Positions 38,701 through 50,937 of a stretch of 64,000 bases of DNA are shown here, in pieces. The position numbers and the translations under genes were made by a program. Below the pieces are notes generated by a model, which was not told where the DNA came from, made no database searches, and saw nothing but the letters and a program-made list of their open reading frames with translations. The number at the start of each line of letters is the position of its first letter. The stretch's first letter is position 1. This stretch comes from Macrotrachela quadricornifera (Eukaryota; Rotifera; Eurotatoria; Philodinida; Philodinidae): positions 93,057 through 157,056 of the forward strand of contig JAJEKB010000459.1 in NCBI GenBank assembly GCA_022393335.1. Reading direction: 5' to 3'.

Positions 38701-41700
38701 TTAATATCAAATTTTTTCTTTCTTTTTTTTTACAATTTAAAATTATTTTAGATGATTCAAGCAATACAAGTATTAAGATTTCATCTTCTTGAGTTAGAAA
38801 AAGTATGAAGAATTATTTTATCAAATAATAAATTTTTATCATTTTTGTTTAAGGTTCATGAATTATGCGATAATTTTACTCATCGTTATATAACATGTTT
38901 AAAAGGAAAATTACCGATGGATTTAGTAATCGATGAACGTGATTCAAATGTTTCATCATCAAAATCAGGTGATGATGATGATCAAGATGATGATCAATCA
39001 AGTCCTCAACCACCATCAGGATTTCCACCACAACCGCCTACAAGTTCATCACGTTCATCATCTTATAATCAACATAGTCCAGATGGTTCAACAACACCAT
39101 TTACTCAACATCCGAAATCTGTAAATCGTCTTTTTTTTTCTTTTTTTTACACATTATTTTTTAATATTTTAAGTAATCAAAACACCTATTTTTTTTTTTT
39201 AATATTTAAGCTTCGATCATCATCATCACAATTAACACCCTTTGTTTCACCTCATCATCTTGGTCATTCTCATCATCATCTTCAACCTCCACCACCACCA
39301 CCATCAACACATTTTCAACAACAACTTCTACCACCACCACCTCCACATCCATCATATTCAAGTCATCTTGTTGGTCATCATCCAACACTTTTAAATCATC
39401 AACAACATTTTCATCATACAATTCATAATGATGATACACAATCGACACATTCTTCGTCAGATACAAATACTCCAAATTCAAATCAAACAACAATGATTAA
39501 TATGACAAATACCAATAATAATTATCATAGTTTACATGACAATAATAGTGAAACAGGTATGTGTTTTATTTCAAATGATCAGTTAGTTTTACTAATAGAA
39601 ACAATCGTTGACATTTCATTATTATTACACATGTTCTACATATATACGCCAGGGAACAAGCAATATAAATAATTGTGAATAAAAAAAAAAAAAAACATTA
39701 TCAATCTGTCTATATATTCAATTATTTTCTTGTTCCCAAACGAATTCGATTGACTGATAATATTTGCATGTCTTTTTTTTAAAAAATTTTCTCTTAAAAT
39801 AATCTCTGATTTCATACATATTAAAAGTTAACATTCATTTTTCTATATGTTAATCACATTCGAATGCTTTTTTTTCTTAAATCGATTGTCAAGACATATA
39901 ACTATACGTATATATATATATATATATGGGTGTGTCTCATCAATCAAATATAATTGATCCTAAGAATGAATAGGTTTTAAATATATTAAAATTTACCATT
40001 TATTTTTGCTTTATTTCAGGTGACAATTTTGATAATAGCATAGGGTCAGGTGGTGAAGATGATCTTGATGATAATTCAAAAAAACGTCAAAAAAAACGTG
40101 GAATTTTTCCAAAAGTAGCTACTAATATTATGCGAGCATGGTTATTTCAACATTTAACTGTAAATTTATATTTAACAAAAAAAAAAACTTATCTTTTTCT
40201 TTATTGTTATTAGCATCCATATCCGTCCGAAGAACAAAAGAAACAATTAGCTCAAGATACTGGTTTAACAATTTTACAAGGTAAATTTAATTTTATCTCT
40301 AATAAAATATATCTCTATATATATATATATTTTTTCTTTATTTTAGTTAATAATTGGTAAGTTAAATATATATTTATTTCTTATTGGTTACTATTTAATA
40401 GAAAATTTTAACCAATTAAAAAATATATATCAGATGTTTATTCTCAATTTGGGACTTGTTGCCATTTGTCGGTATGCTTTTTTTTTTGTCAGTTTGTTAT
40501 TACTATATGTCGGCAATAATAATGATCAAACTTATATATATCTTTTTGACATATAATCAACATAAAGCAATAGTATGGTCAATTAATAAAATAAACAATC
40601 TGCTCATTGATACTATTGTAGCGTGCAAATAGAAAATTAGAAAAGATTTTCAAGCGTAATAGACAATTCAATTGAACTGTCAAAAAAAATGTTTGATGCT
40701 ACGAGAATGATGATTATTATCTGTATGCACGCAAATATCGATCAAAAAAAAAAAAAAGAAAGAACCTATTGCGTGAATATTGATGAGATTAATACATGTA
40801 ATAGCCATTGACTAAATGGGTCACGTTCGTTATTTTATTTTTTTGATTCTTTTTTTTTTTTTTTTTGTATGTGAAAAGATTCGAGAAAAACATCTGGCAG
40901 GATGTTGATGACAACAATCGATCGTCACCATCGTTAAAATCACATTAAGAGAACGAGGAGGAGAAGAAACGAAACTTATACATTAGCTTGTCTTGTTTGT
41001 ATATACATATCTTGAAGGAGAAGATCGTTACTATATCTCTTTTCCACAAGATGGACATCATTTATCATTGCTTAGATATCGTTATATTGTAAACAAATCT
41101 GTCTATCTTCTTCTCCTGCTGACAGGTTTTTCTAGGTCATATTTATTCTTATCATAAAAAGGTTAAATTTACTTGAATAATCAAATTTTTATTGATAAAT
41201 GTAACAGATAAAACATCATAAGAAAGAAATCGATGATAATTAACCTCTATATAATAAAATAAACATATTTCAATTAACTTTTAAAAGATATGTTATACAT
41301 TGTCTTTTATCCTTTCTTTTCTTTTTTTCTTTTTTTTATAAAGGTTTATCAATGCCAGACGTCGTATTGTTCAACCGATGATTGATCAATCTAATCGTGC
41401 TGGTAAGTTCCAATAAAAGTGATAATGAGAAATAATAAATGTATAAAATTCGTCATATATATATATATCCTATCAGTGGTATCCTCTCCTGTTATGACAA
41501 AACGATATAAACGTCAGAATAAATCTCGAGGATTAATATTAAATGAAAAAAAATTATATCGTCGAACAAATCCTGTTAAAACACCAGTTGTTTCTCAACA
41601 ATTATTCCCTTCGTATATATCAAAAGGCAAGAGTGTATGACGCTCTAACATTATTTTATATCTAATGCTTCTTTCATTATTTATCAAATTTTACATAATA

Positions 41701-42496
41701 TTTAAAAAAAAATAAAACAAAACAAAACAAAACATCTTCCTTATTTTTTCTTTTTTTCCAGCCCATGCTCAAAAAGGTAGAACTTCTACTTATGCATCAT
41801 TGTGTACGTGTGTGTGTGTGTGTATTGCTCATTTTTACTTCTGCTGCTTTTTATTTTAAAATGACTTGAACGTGTCAAATGAATATATATATATATTCTT
41901 TTGCTTGACAATTAATTATACTTGATCAGAATTCAATTGATAAAAATGTCGTATGACATATCAATAGTTGAAAACTAGATTGATTTGTGAAAGAAAAAGA
42001 ATAGTCATTCTAATTCATAAAGACACTTGAGCAATTGTTCCTCCTCTCTTTTTTTTCCTTTTGCTGTCAAAGTTAATTATTTGCACGAATGCGTGAAATA
42101 ATACAGATGATGAAAAATGATAGACATAAAAATTTTATTATTATTTTTCTTTTTCTTCTAGCGGCTATACCATCTGAATTTACCGATTGTTTCGGTCCAT
42201 ATTCTCCTGATGCAGCTGCAGCTGCTGCTATGCATTATCAATTTAATGGAGGTTATCCAACAGCACCTCATGGTAAGATATAATAATAAAGAGTTTTTTG
42301 TCTTAAATATTTACTTTTCTTTTTTTTAGATATTTTTGGATCTTACGCTCAAATGTCACAATTTCGAAATCCGATGATGATGATGTATCCAGGTGGTTAT
42401 CCTGTATCATCAAGTCCGACTAATATGATGGATCCAATGGGTCATCATCACCATCAACAACAAGAATCATCAGCAGTTACAAGTGGAGCTTCTTAG
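35782..42496 (+). CDS. MEIS: Meis/homothorax TALE homeobox transcription factor
   Basis: Fourteen exons join to 561 aa: 35782-35796, 35857-36104, 37514-37652, 38636-38686, 38752-38802, 38854-39120, 39211-39556, 40020-40159, 40214-40280, 40347-40356, 41344-41402, 41762-41776, 42162-42272, 42330-42496. The Meis/PKNOX N-terminal domain (PBC partner binding) is encoded at 37514-38935 ([20 protein letters not shown]; then [17 protein letters not shown] and [10 protein letters not shown]). A low-complexity Ser/Pro/His linker follows. The TALE homeodomain runs [53 protein letters not shown], with the PYP loop insertion and Ile50-Asn51. Meis proteins partner Pbx/Exd and Hox proteins. Introns are far longer than elsewhere in the window (up to about 1.4 kb). 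Two microexons (10 and 15 bp) and an alternative exon at 41477-41640 are noted separately. Confidence 0.95.
36737..36757. repeat. (AT)n microsatellite in Meis intron
   Basis: AT dinucleotide run inside the large intron between the second and third Meis coding exons (36105-37513). The rest of that intron is non-coding, with several short purine-rich and pyrimidine-rich tracts. Confidence 0.85.
39908..39927. repeat. (TA)n microsatellite in Meis intron
   Basis: A short TA run lies in the 463-bp intron (39557-40019) upstream of the first homeodomain exon. Confidence 0.8.
40347..40356 (+). other. 10-bp microexon encoding the homeodomain VNNW
   Basis: TTAATAATTG is flanked by TTTTAG and GTAAGT. 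It is needed to link ...GLTILQ (exon ending 40280, phase 1) to FINARRR (exon starting 41344, phase 2). Together they read LQ-VNNW-FINARRR, the invariant start of homeodomain helix 3. Without it the frame and the recognition helix are lost. The downstream intron is about 987 bp. Confidence 0.85.
41477..41640 (+). other. Candidate alternative Meis exon with its own stop
   Basis: A CTATCAG acceptor in the correct phase (1) follows the homeodomain exon. The frame reads [16 protein letters not shown], is Lys/Arg-rich, and ends SKGKSV followed by TGA at 41638-41640. Used as a terminal exon it would give a Meis isoform with a basic tail of about 54 residues instead of the Ala/Met/His-rich C-terminus. 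A GTGTAT donor just before the stop (41633) is also in phase and would allow an internal cassette. Vertebrate Meis genes have alternative C-termini, which makes this plausible, but the exon is unproven. Confidence 0.45.
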
Positions 42497-43821: not shown

Positions 43822-46800
43822 ATGATGCGATCAGCAAATATAACTTCATCAAATAAAGAAATTCTTATACAACGATGGCAACGTCATCTTCATGGTCGTA
43901 CACATGTCAGTTTTCAAGAACTTATGACTTTACTTCGACAACGTGTATGAACTATTTAGTATTATTATTATTATTATTTAATTTTTTTTTTATTAATCAT
44001 TTCTAGCAATTATTAGAAACAGTTTTTTGTTTATTCGATCGTGATTCAAGTGGTTTGCTATCGGAATCTGAATGGATTGGCTCTATATATAAAGTAGCTG
44101 AGTATGTTTTTGAATGTAAAAGATTTCTTTTAAATAAAATAATATATTTTCTATAGAACAGCAAATCGTACAAAAGATATTAAATCACTTGAACCATTTA
44201 TACATAGTTTTGAACATATGTCACATGAATATGATTCACTTAATATAAATAGTTTTTGTAAATTATTTGAAGATTCATCAGTAAAATTTATTAATAATTA
44301 AAAAATAAAAAAAAAATTTTAAATTATTTATATTTAGTTTCGACGAGAATTTGTATTATTATTTTTGGGTGAAACAAATATTTTAACTGTTATGGAATTT
44401 ATAGATGTACTTCGAGCTATTTCTAAGTTTGTTTATTTTTTTTTATTTTTTGTTTTTGTAATTTTTGATATTTAAAGTGTTAAATCCGATACAAAATGGC
44501 TTTCATGGTTAGCTTATCAATTTCAAACAGCAGTTAGTAAAAATCGAAATAATACATGTGGAGAAGATAGTATGGATTTAGAAACATTTAAAGATAGTTT
44601 TCATTTTAAAGTAGTATGTATTTATAAAAAAACAAAAAAAAAAAGAAATATTAAAATTTATATATACATATTTTTTTTTAAGCCTGAATTAGCTGACTGT
44701 TTATTTAATTATCTTGATACGGATAGAACTGGACAATTACCATTTGAAAAATTTATTCAAAGATTTGAATTTATTGTTGAAGCAAATGATTGTGAAAAAG
44801 TTGAATTCCTTTTTAAAATATTTGATCATGATAGTTAGTTTTAATTAAATTTAATAATTATAAAAAAAATAATATATAATTGCTTTTTTTTCTTACTTCT
44901 TTTAAAGATGATGGATTAATTAACTTTAGTGAAATGAAATTATTACTTCGTTGCTTTCTTGAACAATCACCATCATTAGATTTAGAAGAAACATTAGAAG
45001 AATTAACAACTAGTTTATTTAAAGAAACTGATGTTGATAGATCAGGTGATATTAGTTTAGATGAATTATCAAATGCATTTAAACGAAATGAACATTTATT
45101 AAAAGTTCTTTCATTAAGGTTAAGAAAATAAAATAAATTATTTTAAATAAATAAAATGTTTGTTTTTTTTTCTTTCTTTCTAGTACATGTAATTGGATTC
45201 AACCAAAACCAGCAGCAATCAGTAAATGTTATAAACGTACATTAACAATTCGTAATTGGATACGTAATAATCTTGGATTAGTATTTTTTTGGTCATTATA
45301 TTTATTTATATGTCTTTGTATATGTGTTAATGTCTTACGTGTTTATATTGGTCAACAACATGCTCATTTTCTTGTTGTTATTGCTCGAATCAATGGTGAA
45401 ATTAAATCTTTTGTATATTTATATATATATATTTGTAATTATTTTTTAGGTGGAATGCTTAATTTTAATTGTGCCTTAATACTTTCGTTAATGCTTCGGA
45501 AACATATAACATGGATGAGGTCAAAAGGTGGCAGTTGGTTTTTTCCACTTGATCATCATATTGATATACATAAAATTATTGGAATTATTATATTAATTGA
45601 AACTATATTACATACAGCAGCACATTTGGCTTATTTAGGTTAGTTGATTCATATATCAATATTCATTTTTAGAATATTTATTATTTTCTTTTTTTTTTTA
45701 AGGCTATATTTTTTATGTTTGTTCGTTGCCAACAGATTTGGGTTTTCCATGCTATAGTAATAGTAGTAATTTTCATAATAATTTTTACAACAGATCATTC
45801 TCTGATCCTATGATATTAACAAAACGATATCAATATGATGGTACAACAAATCAATGTGAAGAATTTGAATACCATGGATGTGGCGGTAATTGGAATAATT
45901 TTCATACAGAATATGCATGCATGGCTCGATGTAGTAAGATATATTTTTTTTTGTTTTTAATATGATAAAAAAAATGAAAATATTATTTATTTAAATATAG
46001 AAGCGTATCGTGAAACTCAACATAATTATCTTGATGCACTTTTTACAACTAAATTAGGACTTGGTTATATAACAGGTGTTGTTGAATTTATATTAGGTGG
46101 ACTTATTTATATAATGTGTTTACCATTTGTACGAAAAGGTGGTCATTTTCAAGTAAGAAAATAAAACAAAAAAAAACAACATACATCGATTTAAAAATTT
46201 TCTTTAGTTATTTTATTGGTGTCATATGTTAACTCTTCCATGGTTAATAATAATGCTTTTACATGGACCAAGATTTTGGAAATGGTTATTGATTCCTGGT
46301 TGTTTATATCTTATTGAAAAAATTTTACGTTATCATAAATCACGTTCAAATAAACATGGAGAAACATTTATAATGGAAGCTATTTTATTACCATCACAAG
46401 TAAAAAAATTTATTTTTTTTTTAATTCAAAATATTTTATTTACAAAAATTTATTTTTAGGTTATTCATTTAGTTATTAATAAACCAAGAAAATTCACATA
46501 TAAACCTGGAGATTATATTTATATTAATATTCCAGCTGTAGCTAATTTTGAATGGCATCCATTTAGTATTAGTAGTGCTCCTGAGCATAAAGGTAATAAT
46601 GATAAAAATAAAGATTTAAAAAAAAAATACTCGTTTATAACAAACATTATTTTTACATTCAGATAGTCTTTGGCTTCATCTTCGTGCTTGTGGTTATTGG
46701 ACACAACGTGTTTATGATTTATTTCGAGTAAAATTACAGCAAGAACATGGTATCTCACTTGATGATAATAGTAATATTAATCTTCGTACATCAATGCGTT

Positions 46801-49273
46801 CACGTATGTCAAAAACATATATTGAAGAATTGCGTGGTTCAACTCAAGAAGATGAAAATGTTCAAGTTGATTTAAATAATACTGAAAAATCGATTCAGTC
46901 ATATCAACATGGAAAACCTAATATTAAACAACATAGTTCATTATCATTACCACAAATAAAATTTCATAATAACGTATCAACACCATGTCAATCAGCCATA
47001 AATATACGTGATTATAAAAAATTACATTTAGAAAATGAAACAAAATCCGATGAAAAAATTTTAAATGATAATAATGAAGAAATAACAAAAGGTAAAACAG
47101 TTATTAGAAATAATAATCAATTAACTGTACCACCTATTGGGGATTATTGTATACGAATATCAAATACATCATCAATGTGTGATGAACAACAAGAAATTCC
47201 ACTTAATGATTCACGTTTATCAGATGCACTTGGTTATTTACGTATGTATCAAAATCATAATCGTGTACAATATAATGCACTTGAATTTAATGATCGAGAA
47301 GATTTACAAGTAAAATAAACTTCATTTTAAATTATATATTGTTTATCTAAGAAAAGAAAAATATTTAATTTAGGTTTTAATTGATGGTCCTTATGGTGCT
47401 CCATCTCAACATATATTTGAAGCTGAACATGCTGTTTTAATAGCTGCTGGTATTGGTATAACACCATTTGCATCTATTTTACAAAGTATTATGTGTCGTT
47501 ATCGAAATCTTCGACATAAATGTCCAAATTGTGAATATATTTGGGATAGTCCACAAAATAATGAACCATTTGTGAGAAAAGTAAAAATAAATTTTTTTAA
47601 TTGTATTTCGAAAATTATTGAATTGAAATTTTTTTTGTTATTAAGGTGGATTTTATTTGGGTTACACGTGATCAACGTTCACTTGAATGGTTTATTAGTT
47701 TATTAGCACGAATGGAAATTGAACAATCACATTTAAGACAAAATTCTGATAAAGGACCGTTACTTGATGTTCATTTATATGTAACAAGTGCGAAATCAGC
47801 AGCTGATTTAAAAGCACTTAATATTTATTTATCATTGGATTTAATTGGAAGAGAAAATACTACTAATTGTAATGCAGTTGATAGACTTCGTCAACGTACT
47901 AAACATGGTCGACCTGATTGGGATCAAGTAAAAAAAAATTCTTTCTTTCTTTCTCATTTATATTACATAAGAAATTTTATTTTACAGTCATGCATTTATT
48001 CGATAGAAAAACATTATCTAAAACAGTCTAAACCTGATATTTCTATTTAAGAGAGTATTATTGATATACAAAAATAGAATATACATAAAGTAGATGAAAC
48101 TAATTAAAACAAAAGAAGACCTATGTTTAGAAGGATAAATCACTAATGAATTTATTATAAAAGTAGACATAAAAAGTAAGATAAACGTCTTTTTTTTTGA
48201 ATGACATAAAGAATATACAAATATTTTATTTTGACAATTATTAACTTATTAATCATTGAGTATTTATATTAATTTAGTTGAATAGAATAAAATGTTCTTT
48301 TAACTTCTAGGAAGAAAAATCTTTTTAATATGAATTGAATAGTAGATTTGTTGGAGTTTTTTACAAACTAATTCTTGAAAAGTGAAGTTCAATATTAGTG
48401 CATAATTATATTTGTTATCAAATTTTCTCTAAGGTCATTTTTTTCTCATCTTGTGCATATGTTAATAGAAGTTTAATGAGTTTAAAGATCAACGTATTTT
48501 ATCATATTATATAAGAAAATCCATGTTCATCTGAGATATTTCAAATATATCGTAAACATTAAAAAATAATTTGAGAATATATTATTAACTGTTCTTTTGT
48601 GCACTTCAATTTAATTATATTTTTTCGAAATTTTTCGTTCAATAAATAAATGAAAATAACTTTTGAAAAATTATAATAAATAAATTGTTAAAAAATTTTC
48701 TAATCAACTCTTTTATTAAATAATAGATTGATATTCATATATAAAAATTCAAGAACAAAATATCCTTTTTTATCCATTTTCATAAGAAAGATATCGTTTT
48801 TTTTAGAAAATATGACACGTGTAGAATCATTTAACTTTTCTTGTCTCGTGACTCTATTTAAAGAAACATCTTTCTCACTGCTTAGGAAACCATATGCTCT
48901 TTTAATATTATATAAGTATTTATCACCATAGTTCAAAATAACCTTCACCTTGCTCACACTTTCTCATTCTTTTTTTTTTCTTTAAAAGTCTAAGTATATT
49001 TATAATCTTTTACTTTTCTTACTATAATAGTGTTCTCCTTATGATTAAAAAATCTATTTGCATTTGTCTTTAGGGGTATAATGACCTAAAATTTTGAATA
49101 GTAAAATTTTTTTTTTAATTAATATATTTCTTTTATTTTAGGTTTTTACTGATTTATCATGTCAAAGAAAAGGAAAAATATCTGTATTTTATTGTGGACC
49201 ACCAGCATTATCAGGTGAATTAACAAAAAAATGCCGTCAATATGCATTTGCTTTTAAAAAAGAATTATTTTAA
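43822..49273 (+). CDS. NOX5: NOX5-like calcium-regulated NADPH oxidase with an inserted Kunitz domain
   Basis: A multi-exon gene of about 1,100 aa. The N-terminus has four EF-hand loops: [36 protein letters not shown] and [12 protein letters not shown]. The ferric-reductase membrane domain follows, with haem-binding histidines in [20 protein letters not shown] and in [20 protein letters not shown]. Then come the FAD site (YEWHPF-like [14 protein letters not shown]), the NADPH sites [26 protein letters not shown] and FYCGPPAL, and the terminal ...KKELF. This order is that of NOX5, which makes superoxide across the membrane when calcium rises. Unusual features are a Kunitz domain on exon 45703-45933 in the loop between TM3 and TM4, a linker of about 185 aa between the FAD and NADPH segments (about 45 in human), and a final intron of about 1.2 kb (47928-49140). 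The other introns are 50-120 bp. Confidence 0.93.
45703..45933 (+). other. Kunitz/BPTI-type domain exon inside NOX5
   Basis: This single 231-bp exon (77 codons, phase 1 at both ends) encodes all six Kunitz cysteines. The spacings are C-x9-C, then x34, then C-x7-C (CEEFEYHGC), x12 ([12 protein letters not shown]) and C-x3-C. The second half, [12 protein letters not shown] followed by the GCGGNWNNF core, is canonical. The loop after the second cysteine is 34 residues instead of about 15 and contains NSS and NRS sequons. The exon lies between exons encoding [11 protein letters not shown] and [20 protein letters not shown], which align to contiguous sequence in other NOX5 proteins. The segment faces outside the cytosol in the NOX topology. 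Confidence 0.9.
47928..49140. other. Unusually long last intron of NOX5
   Basis: This intron of about 1.2 kb separates the exon ending HGRPDWDQ from the last exon ([11 protein letters not shown]...). Both flanks align to contiguous NOX5 sequence. A short acceptor-like TTTACAG near 47986 could start a minor alternative exon with an early stop. No transposase or clear terminal inverted repeats are visible; several short ORFs on both strands look random. Confidence 0.6.
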
Positions 49274-50475
49274 TTGTTCGATCATTTTATTTTTATTTAT
49301 TTTTTAATTGTATTTCATACTGTTCGAAAATAATTTAAGTTTATGTAGATTTATCCGCATGAAAACAGTTCCTAGCTTTATTTATATTACTTTTTCTTCT
49401 TTTGTTACAAAAAAAAACAAATATAAAAATACGTTAATTAAAAAAAAAAAAAAAGAATCAAACATCAAAAGTTTTATTTACTATCGACGCAATTTCATTA
49501 TATTCATAGAGGACAATTATTATTTAAAACTTTAATTTCTTTGATACAAATCATTTAAAAGATTTCATTATATTACACACATTGTAACCTTAATACTATT
49601 ATAGAACAAAAAGAAAAAGAATAAAAATGAGGGGGAAAAAAAAGGACAGCTAGTAAGAGAAGAAAAAAAAGAGAAAAAAAAATCTAGTTTCTGTTTAATT
49701 GGTCGATCTAACTAAAATTCTTTTCTTTATGATTCATTATTTCTTCTTATTAAATAGATGATCATTAGAAATAGCATTCATTTGTTTTTTTTTTCTGACA
49801 TAGAACATACCATAAGTCAAACGTACACATTAATAATCAGGTATAGAAAATAACAATTTATTAAATATATAGTCCTTGACAACTTTACTAGATCGTATTT
49901 TAGGAAAATTTCATTAGAAATATTTATAGAAATCAATATAATGACATTTATTGATATGACTGTTAGAAATAAAACAGACTAGAAAGAAATAATTACGTCA
50001 AAAATCTAAGAAAATTTTTGCGCATTTCGATTAATAATTAAATATATCCACTTGTCATATCTCCTGTCAAATGAACCGTCAGAAATACTTCTTAAATGAA
50101 AAATATGAAAATTAACTAGTACTCAAAGGCAAATATACATATTATGACTTCCAGAAAATTTTATATTGTACCTACTTATTAGGTCATAAACACCTGCTTC
50201 TTACATTAATTAAAATATAAGATTCGGTTTAAATTTCTTTCTAATGATCAACTTAGTGTCATTTATCTATATTAAAATCTGTTTATAACTGGCACTAATG
50301 AATGTGTCACATTTAGTATTTTTCTTTTTTTTGAATATAATCATAATGAGAAAAATGTCATACACTGATATTACTTCATTATTTCTATAAGTTCATCTTT
50401 ATCTCATAAAGAAAAAAGAAAGAAAATAGAAAAATTTATGATACCTAATTCTAATCTTTCTAATATTATTTTAGA
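49274..50475. other. Intergenic spacer downstream of NOX5
   Basis: NOX5 3' UTR followed by AT-rich sequence. No gene or repeat was recognised. The last 14 bases form a TATTATTTTAG acceptor one base before the next start codon. Confidence 0.5.
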
Positions 50476-50937
50476 ATGATGATGTTTACATCGTATATTA
50501 TTGTTTTTTCAATTATTTTTGGTGTTATTTTAACTAAACCTATACAAGAAAAAATAACTAATGAAAATATATCTCAAGATATAACAATTGAACAAGCTTT
50601 TCGAGAAGCTGAAAGAATCCTTAATCGATATTTTTATTTAATTAATTCTGATACAGATCAACTTGTTTATGCTATGTTACGTATTATTATGAATAATCCA
50701 ACATCATTTCCTTATATACCACATCGTGCATTAGATATAGCATTGAAAAATTTTGAAAAGAAGTTAGGTCAACATGATGTAGATATTTTAACAAAACCTA
50801 TATTATTGTCTATTGAACAAAAGGCTCAAAATAAATCTAAACAATCATTATATAAATTATCGGATGATGTCAAAGAGAAAATCGAAATTGCATTGGATAA
50901 ATTTCTGGAAGAACAACAAGACACATCTCACATGTAA
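50476..50937 (+). CDS. Orphan secreted protein (153 aa)
   Basis: A single-exon ORF of 153 residues. The first ~20 residues form a typical signal peptide (hydrophobic core YIIVFSIIFGVIL followed by TKP). The mature part is predicted mostly helical and charged, with no cysteines, ending FLEEQQDTSHM. Amphipathic stretches such as IEQAFREAERILNRYF and HRALDIALKNFEKKLG suggest a helical bundle. I recognise no family. An ATTATTTTAG acceptor ends one base before the ATG, which supports the start and suggests a spliced or trans-spliced 5' end. An AATAAAA poly(A) signal lies near 51041. Codon use matches the neighbouring genes. Confidence 0.65.
   Translation: MMMFTSYIIVFSIIFGVILTKPIQEKITNENISQDITIEQAFREAERILNRYFYLINSDTDQLVYAMLRIIMNNPTSFPYIPHRALDIALKNFEKKLGQHDVDILTKPILLSIEQKAQNKSKQSLYKLSDDVKEKIEIALDKFLEEQQDTSHM

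Follow-up and report, generated by a model that had tools for sequence, protein, structure and literature searches.

A Kunitz domain exon in an extracellular loop of bdelloid NOX5, with a possible role beside the oxygen-reducing site

Introduction

NOX5 is a calcium-activated, oxidant-making enzyme. NADPH oxidases are mostly viewed as a fixed core under cytosolic regulation, and the extracellular additions that we met are few in the available parts of the literature: the peroxidase-like domain of DUOX, the loops of NOX1-4 and the DOMON domain in some reductases. A stretch of 64,000 nucleotides from the bdelloid rotifer Macrotrachela quadricornifera (contig JAJEKB010000459.1, positions 93,057 to 157,056; hereafter the window) holds a NOX5 gene in which one exon codes for a Kunitz domain between two membrane helices. 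Is this fusion real, how did it arise, and what may a Kunitz domain do at such a place?

Results and Discussion

A Kunitz exon between TM3 and TM4 of a NOX5 gene

The window lies on contig C343 of an assembly of 450 Mb. Joining GT-AG splice sites in a continuous frame gave one coherent NOX5 gene on the + strand with 17 coding exons (43822-49274; 1101 residues), and exon 10 of this model encodes a Kunitz domain inside the loop between the third and fourth transmembrane helices (TM3 and TM4). The exon is bordered by AG/45703 and 45933/GT, both flanking introns are in phase 1, and skipping it preserves the frame (1101 to 1024 residues). An earlier note on this DNA had proposed these borders, the 1-1 phase and in-frame skipping, and the splice model reproduced all three. 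It had also placed the exon in an extracellular loop of NOX5; this location is upheld by domain profiles, by the tree described below and by the extracellular position of the loop in human NOX5 given in the accessible part of PMC11088703.

The Pfam profile PF00014 matched the open reading frame (ORF) of the exon with 49.5 bits (E 4.8e-13) and the spliced protein with 40.9 bits (E 2.3e-10), both above the cut-off of 21, a significance that sustains the original assignment. Among solved structures, the exon ORF matched SmCI (E 2.5e-14) and bikunin (E 4.9e-13). The domain had been called complete. All six cysteines are present, but the window match spans only the latter two thirds of the profile, from position 15 to 52 or 53 (15-53 when the spliced protein is scanned). 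The reason is a C2-C3 segment of 34 residues (canonical 15) that splits off the C1-C2 part; in the relatives P0005 and P0009 the profile was matched over 1-53 and 1-52. The spacing is 9-34-7-12-3; the last three intervals are canonical, as the earlier note had said of this half. In the predicted model of relative P0003, secondary structure suggests a Kunitz fold (hairpin plus C-terminal helix), with predicted local distance difference test (pLDDT) values of 81-93 for the block. The window exon folded alone without an alignment reached a pLDDT of 36.5 and shows nothing, and VIA-align of the full model returned NOX and reductase folds only, a comparison that did not cover the Kunitz part.

The remainder of the predicted protein identifies the gene as a real NOX5. 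Spliced, it matched PF08022 (78.4 bits), PF08030 (92.1 bits) and EF-hand models above cut-off, EF-hand_1 with two stretches. Ferric_reduct stayed below its cut-off (22.8 versus 28 bits), and only the part after the insert was matched. The best PDB match of P0003 is human NOX5. In an alignment of 77 of 98 database matches, the haem ligands at P0003 columns H577 and H590 show no variation, and H420 and H434 are conserved in at least 90% of the proteins. Introns of the gene measure 51-74 base pairs, except for the last (1214 base pairs). Three splice sites have an in-frame alternative 3 nucleotides away: the donor of exon 5, that of exon 10 (at 45930) and the acceptor of exon 11 (at 46004). For the exon 10-11 junction the pair 45933/46001 was adopted. 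The features are as follows.

43822..49274, + strand: NOX5 gene (splice model; Pfam NAD_binding_6, FAD_binding_8, EF-hands, Kunitz).

45450..45638, + strand: exon 9, TM3 with the inner haem ligand His421 (45569-45571) and the outer haem ligand His435 (45611-45613), inner and outer being presumed from NOX topology.

45703..45933, + strand: exon 10, the Kunitz exon, 231 nucleotides, 77 codons, phase 1-1, residues 444-520, beginning 9 residues after His435 in the TM3-TM4 linker.

45720..45932, + strand: Kunitz domain, C1 through C6, located by cysteine pattern, single positions counted: C1 45720, C2 45750, C3 45855, C4 45879, C5 45918, C6 45930.

45753..45824, + strand: segment directly after C2, about 19 residues over canonical, with sequons NSS (45759-45767) and NRS (45789-45797), counted from the sequence.

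46001..46152, + strand: exon 11, remainder of the TM3-TM4 linker, then TM4.

46208..46399, + strand: exon 12, TM5 with the second haem-ligand pair (columns H577 and H590 of P0003).

46460..49274, + strand: exons 13-17, flavin adenine dinucleotide (FAD) and NADPH binding domains (Pfam).

The fusion recurs within the genome and among bdelloids

A PF00014 scan of the assembly gave 52 matches. Four of them have the short 15-52 shape, on C342, C343, C287 and C288, and these coincide with the four strong NOX5 loci of the genome. L009 (C342) is a near-identical haplotype copy of the window gene, and L010 (C287) and L011 (C288) are its diverged homeologs. Each of the three gave matches to all 17 exons, with the acceptor and donor of exon 10 in phase 1. 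Weaker NOX matches occur on 18 further contigs, none of which carries a listed Kunitz match. Three of these contigs were read (L029-L031, on C4741, C2298 and C404) and the other 15 are known as matches only. No Kunitz domain occurs in L029-L031, which are EF-hand or NOX5-like genes and cluster together in the tree. L029 and L030 were read from stop to stop (no ORF of at least 300 residues with ATG, GTG or TTG starts), and L031, the only one of the three compared with solved structures, is NOX5-like, with 216 bits to human NOX5 and 99 to DUOX1.

The earlier note had raised a search for the same insertion in other rotifers. The Kunitz pattern is present in the 10 closest of the 98 database relatives (P0001-P0010) and absent from the other 88. 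Nine of the ten have a species: Adineta steineri (3), A. ricciae (2), Rotaria magnacalcarata, R. socialis, Rotaria sp. Silwood1 and Didymodactylos carnosus, that is, six bdelloid species from two orders, Adinetida (Adineta) and Philodinida (Rotaria, Didymodactylos). The A. steineri model P0001 carries the domain twice in tandem. Among the 98 relatives, the pattern was not found in the monogonont Brachionus calyciflorus protein P0021 or in its closest proteins. A profile search from six bdelloid NOX5s, with 8000 candidates scored, gave 15 matches: nine of the ten Kunitz-bearing proteins and six without Kunitz. A protein search with the Kunitz part only found P0002 alone among 4 candidates and is uninformative on Kunitz-NOX fusions elsewhere; absence outside bdelloids therefore applies to the proteins of the relative list and the profile search. 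An assembly chimera or gene-model artefact, a concern raised at the outset, is ruled out by the same architecture at four loci here, three of them beyond the window, and in ten database proteins.

A single gain on the bdelloid stem as the simplest history

A tree of 27 rows was built from the cytosolic half of the protein, with the insert excluded. The seven Kunitz-bearing NOX5s in it group as a single clade (100/100), whose sister is a set of nine Brachionus-type NOX5s (100/99), a label whose species attribution rests on P0021, the sole named monogonont. Because the Kunitz-bearing proteins are one clade in this position, the simplest history would be one gain on the bdelloid stem, by which a phase 1-1 Kunitz exon entered a phase-1 intron of the loop; loss in monogononts in place of gain in bdelloids may also account for the pattern. 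Measured from the second histidine of HTxAH to the conserved TG, the TM3-TM4 linker has 91-106 residues in eight bdelloid Kunitz proteins, in contrast to 17-45 in the 69 other aligned proteins. This length sets the bdelloid proteins apart from human NOX5 (PDB 8u85 and others) and from animal NOX5 in general. The window linker of 105 residues becomes 28 without the 77-codon exon, compared with 29 in Brachionus, so apparently nothing ancestral was lost.

The same numbers bear on alternative splicing, which the earlier note had suggested for this symmetric exon. If exon 10 were a cassette whose use decided between a capped and an ordinary NOX5, skipping would leave a linker of Brachionus length. 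However, when scored with a leave-one-out matrix built on the 16 introns of this gene (a small sample), both its donor and its acceptor come 5th of 16 and are not weak, and all ten closest database models carry the exon. Symmetry alone says little, because six of the 17 NOX5 exons (1, 9, 10, 12, 15 and 16) have a length divisible by three. We regard such a cassette as very improbable.

Where could the exon have landed, and from where? In L029-L031, TM3 is closely followed by a phase-1 intron that lies four codons further downstream than the intron of the window gene. The two may be one ancestral intron, and the intron of this Kunitz-less NOX5-like family is a plausible landing-site type; a phase 1-1 Kunitz exon dropping into a post-TM3 phase-1 intron would yield exactly the structure observed. 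A consensus scan found a candidate phase-1 acceptor before each of 16 other Kunitz domains read in this genome, from 17 loci fetched (L023, L027 and L028 lacked the pattern and were left out). Like other exon-shuffled extracellular modules, the exon of the window, L009, L010 and L011 is a symmetric 1-1 exon holding exactly the domain. As for the donor, the last domain read in the multi-Kunitz gene L018 (G000:C388:21600-25900) is spaced 9-25-7-12-3 and has two sequons after C2. In a tree of 26 Kunitz domains, from which four near-duplicate rows had been removed, it adjoins the NOX5 group with a support of 52/91 on a long branch. It is possibly the donor or the sister of the NOX5 Kunitz domain, a tentative link in view of this support, the long branch and a NOX5 group at 88/56.

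Sequence traits argue against protease inhibition

Fifteen NOX5 Kunitz sequences were compared, four from the loci of this genome and eleven from the ten database proteins; they are related, and some are nearly identical. All 15 have six cysteines spaced 9-(20 to 35)-7-12-3, which is one residue over canonical in C1-C2 and 5 to 20 over in C2-C3. The GCGGN core is found in 14, with GCSGN in P0008. Thus six cysteines, 7-12-3 and a GC-GN core are shared with the Kunitz/BPTI family (bikunin, TFPI, the APP inhibitor domain and the multi-Kunitz protein of C388), whereas 12 of the 16 other Kunitz domains read in the genome are spaced 8-15-7-12-3, and the NOX5 domain, unlike the family systems compared, has a polytopic membrane enzyme as its host. 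The Adineta proteins P0002 and P0003 have a seventh cysteine, placed in the C1-C2 loop and absent from the window; it could be free or paired elsewhere.

In Kunitz inhibitors, P1 lies in an exposed canonical loop and is basic, or conserved at the least. In the NOX5 sequences, the residue after C2, which we take to be P1 by inhibitor numbering, varies among Y, H, Q, N, D and P and is K or R in 0 of 15; K or R is found in 6 of the 16 other domains. Immediately after P1, in the segment that presumably corresponds to the protease-binding loop of inhibitors, every NOX5 sequence has an insert with one to three N-glycosylation sequons, and no sequon occurs elsewhere in the domain.

These traits weigh on the suggestion in the earlier note that the domain may bind a protease. 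A membrane-tethered inhibitor would block a serine protease near the oxidase, either shielding the oxidase from cleavage or coupling proteolysis and reactive oxygen species. The intact cysteines and the nearly constant core speak for this, and Tyr, the P1 of the window, can in principle suit chymotrypsin-like enzymes. Against this stand the varied P1 without K or R, the C2-C3 interval of 20-35 instead of 15 residues and the sequon-bearing insert right after P1. We judge inhibition unlikely, and the trypsin-type activity has probably been lost.

A glycosylated lid as the preferred reading

Of the roles that had been suggested, shielding of the extracellular haem side is the one we prefer. The fusion itself is observed; from its place and traits we infer, with a probability of about 0.45, that the domain serves as a glycosylated lid next to the oxygen-reducing site. 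TM3, bearing the outer haem ligand, would leave the membrane and lead directly to the first Kunitz cysteine. In the Kunitz fold, the C1-C6 disulfide draws both ends together, and for this reason the domain should fit in the loop without parting TM3 and TM4. A small, disulfide-locked, N-glycosylated domain would in this manner be held beside the site, slow the escape of superoxide and, with more dismutation, raise the release of hydrogen peroxide, and/or shield the site.

Known oxidases offer precedents for such a cover. In human NOX5, the extracellular linkers TM1-2, TM3-4 and TM5-6 are short and the oxygen site lies open (PMC11088703, in the part available). In NOX2, loops A, C and E cover the oxygen site and loop C carries two N-glycans, according to the accessible text of PMC9568551; the bdelloid protein would resemble it in loop C glycosylation, predicted here from sequons, and differs in that its cap would be an inserted known domain and not long loops. 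In DUOX1, the excerpt of PMC7794343 describes an extra extracellular domain above the oxygen site that is disulfide-stapled to loop C. That domain is large, N-terminal and equipped with its own transmembrane helix, whereas the bdelloid one comprises 70 residues within loop C itself. A proposal in the available part of PMC8956913 is that a cover of this kind delays diffusion and thereby favours hydrogen peroxide. The Kunitz lid would supply NOX5 with a cap like the NOX2 loops or the DUOX domain. We would go one step further only tentatively, and think it rather doubtful, that bdelloids hold an independently evolved capped NOX5, in which a shuffled glycosylated Kunitz domain covers the site and makes the enzyme mainly hydrogen peroxide-releasing or gated, in convergence with the DUOX domain and the NOX4 E-loop.

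A Kunitz domain is not known to carry a redox cofactor. In this it differs from the DOMON domain of some ferric reductases, also an extracellular module added to the same superfamily and discussed as an electron-transfer module in the part of PMC3591440 available.

Several observations count against a lid. The predicted model leaves the Kunitz domain unplaced relative to the oxygen site, and its insert block has a pLDDT of 51-56. The genome also keeps uncapped, Kunitz-less NOX5-like relatives. When the residues of the insert are shuffled, at least one sequon arises in 37-85% of cases, depending on the sequence (12 sequences); since composition alone yields sequons and the 15 sequences are related, the insert data only suggest glycosylation as a selected trait. 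Exon 10 also evolves fast. Between homeologs, its nonsynonymous divergence (dN) of 0.316 is the second highest of the 17 exons, with a synonymous divergence (dS) of 0.510; its dN/dS is 0.62 compared with 0.515 for the other exons (Nei-Gojobori); the excess of dS over dN is not significant for the exon alone (Fisher p 0.13); and 3 of about 10.5 nonsynonymous haplotype differences fall in it.

The fast evolution, the non-significant constraint and the variable insert length would also suit a tolerated passenger, an exon in a permissive loop that still folds and is invisible to selection beyond being harmless. Yet the six cysteines and the 7-12-3 spacing are intact in 15 of 15 sequences across two orders, and every examined copy of the lineage carries exon 10, though in-frame skipping or loss is possible. 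A mere passenger is thus, in our estimate, improbable. As a separate observation on rates, the highest dN/dS of the 17 exons between homeologs (1.32) belongs to exon 14 (46663-47309), a stretch that is mostly disordered in the model of a relative.

Kunitz domains of matrix proteins act as protein-protein interaction heads. By analogy, the domain could be a binding or anchoring module that fixes NOX5 to matrix, to cuticle or eggshell components or to a partner subunit such as a peroxidase. A recognition surface would agree with a kept core whose exposed insert changes fast, and the closest other Kunitz domain by spacing belongs to the multi-Kunitz L018. The tree link to L018 is, however, weak, and the insert differs between copies. 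We place this possibility second, behind the lid.

The Kunitz domain in loop C beside the outer haem amounts to a natural experiment: does what covers the oxygen site decide between superoxide and hydrogen peroxide as output? The domain is a single exon, and its in-frame removal leaves a linker of ordinary length, which eases a test.

An architecture visible in databases

The earlier note knew of no described precedent, and our searches agree. Literature searches for Kunitz with NADPH oxidase or with bdelloid, which did not extend to subscription papers and preprints, met no Kunitz-bearing NADPH oxidase among the papers listed. The word kunitz is absent, by term search of the available text, from the NOX and reactive oxygen species family papers PMC7730656, PMC9421330, PMC5372347 and PMC3591440. 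The part of PMC7962413 that was available mentions Kunitz inhibitors and NOX5, separately. In databases, the Kunitz-NOX5 entries are unnamed or called FAD-binding or NADPH oxidase 5, and their Pfam Kunitz label is present. The architecture is therefore visible in public databases yet undescribed, as far as the literature searched reaches. Bdelloids are known to survive desiccation and oxidative damage (PMC7730656, in the text available).

Neighbouring genes

Downstream of NOX5, window positions 50464-50937 encode a small protein that lacks a Pfam match and whose N-terminus looks signal-like by eye. It shares 42% identity with a tail fused onto P0006, the NOX5 gene model of R. socialis, so gene order beside NOX5 is probably conserved. 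The upstream gene, on the + strand at 40214-42496 (extent by eye), contains a homeobox of TALE type (40214-40357; PF05920, Homeobox_KN, E 7e-8), and we take it to be Meis/homothorax-like.
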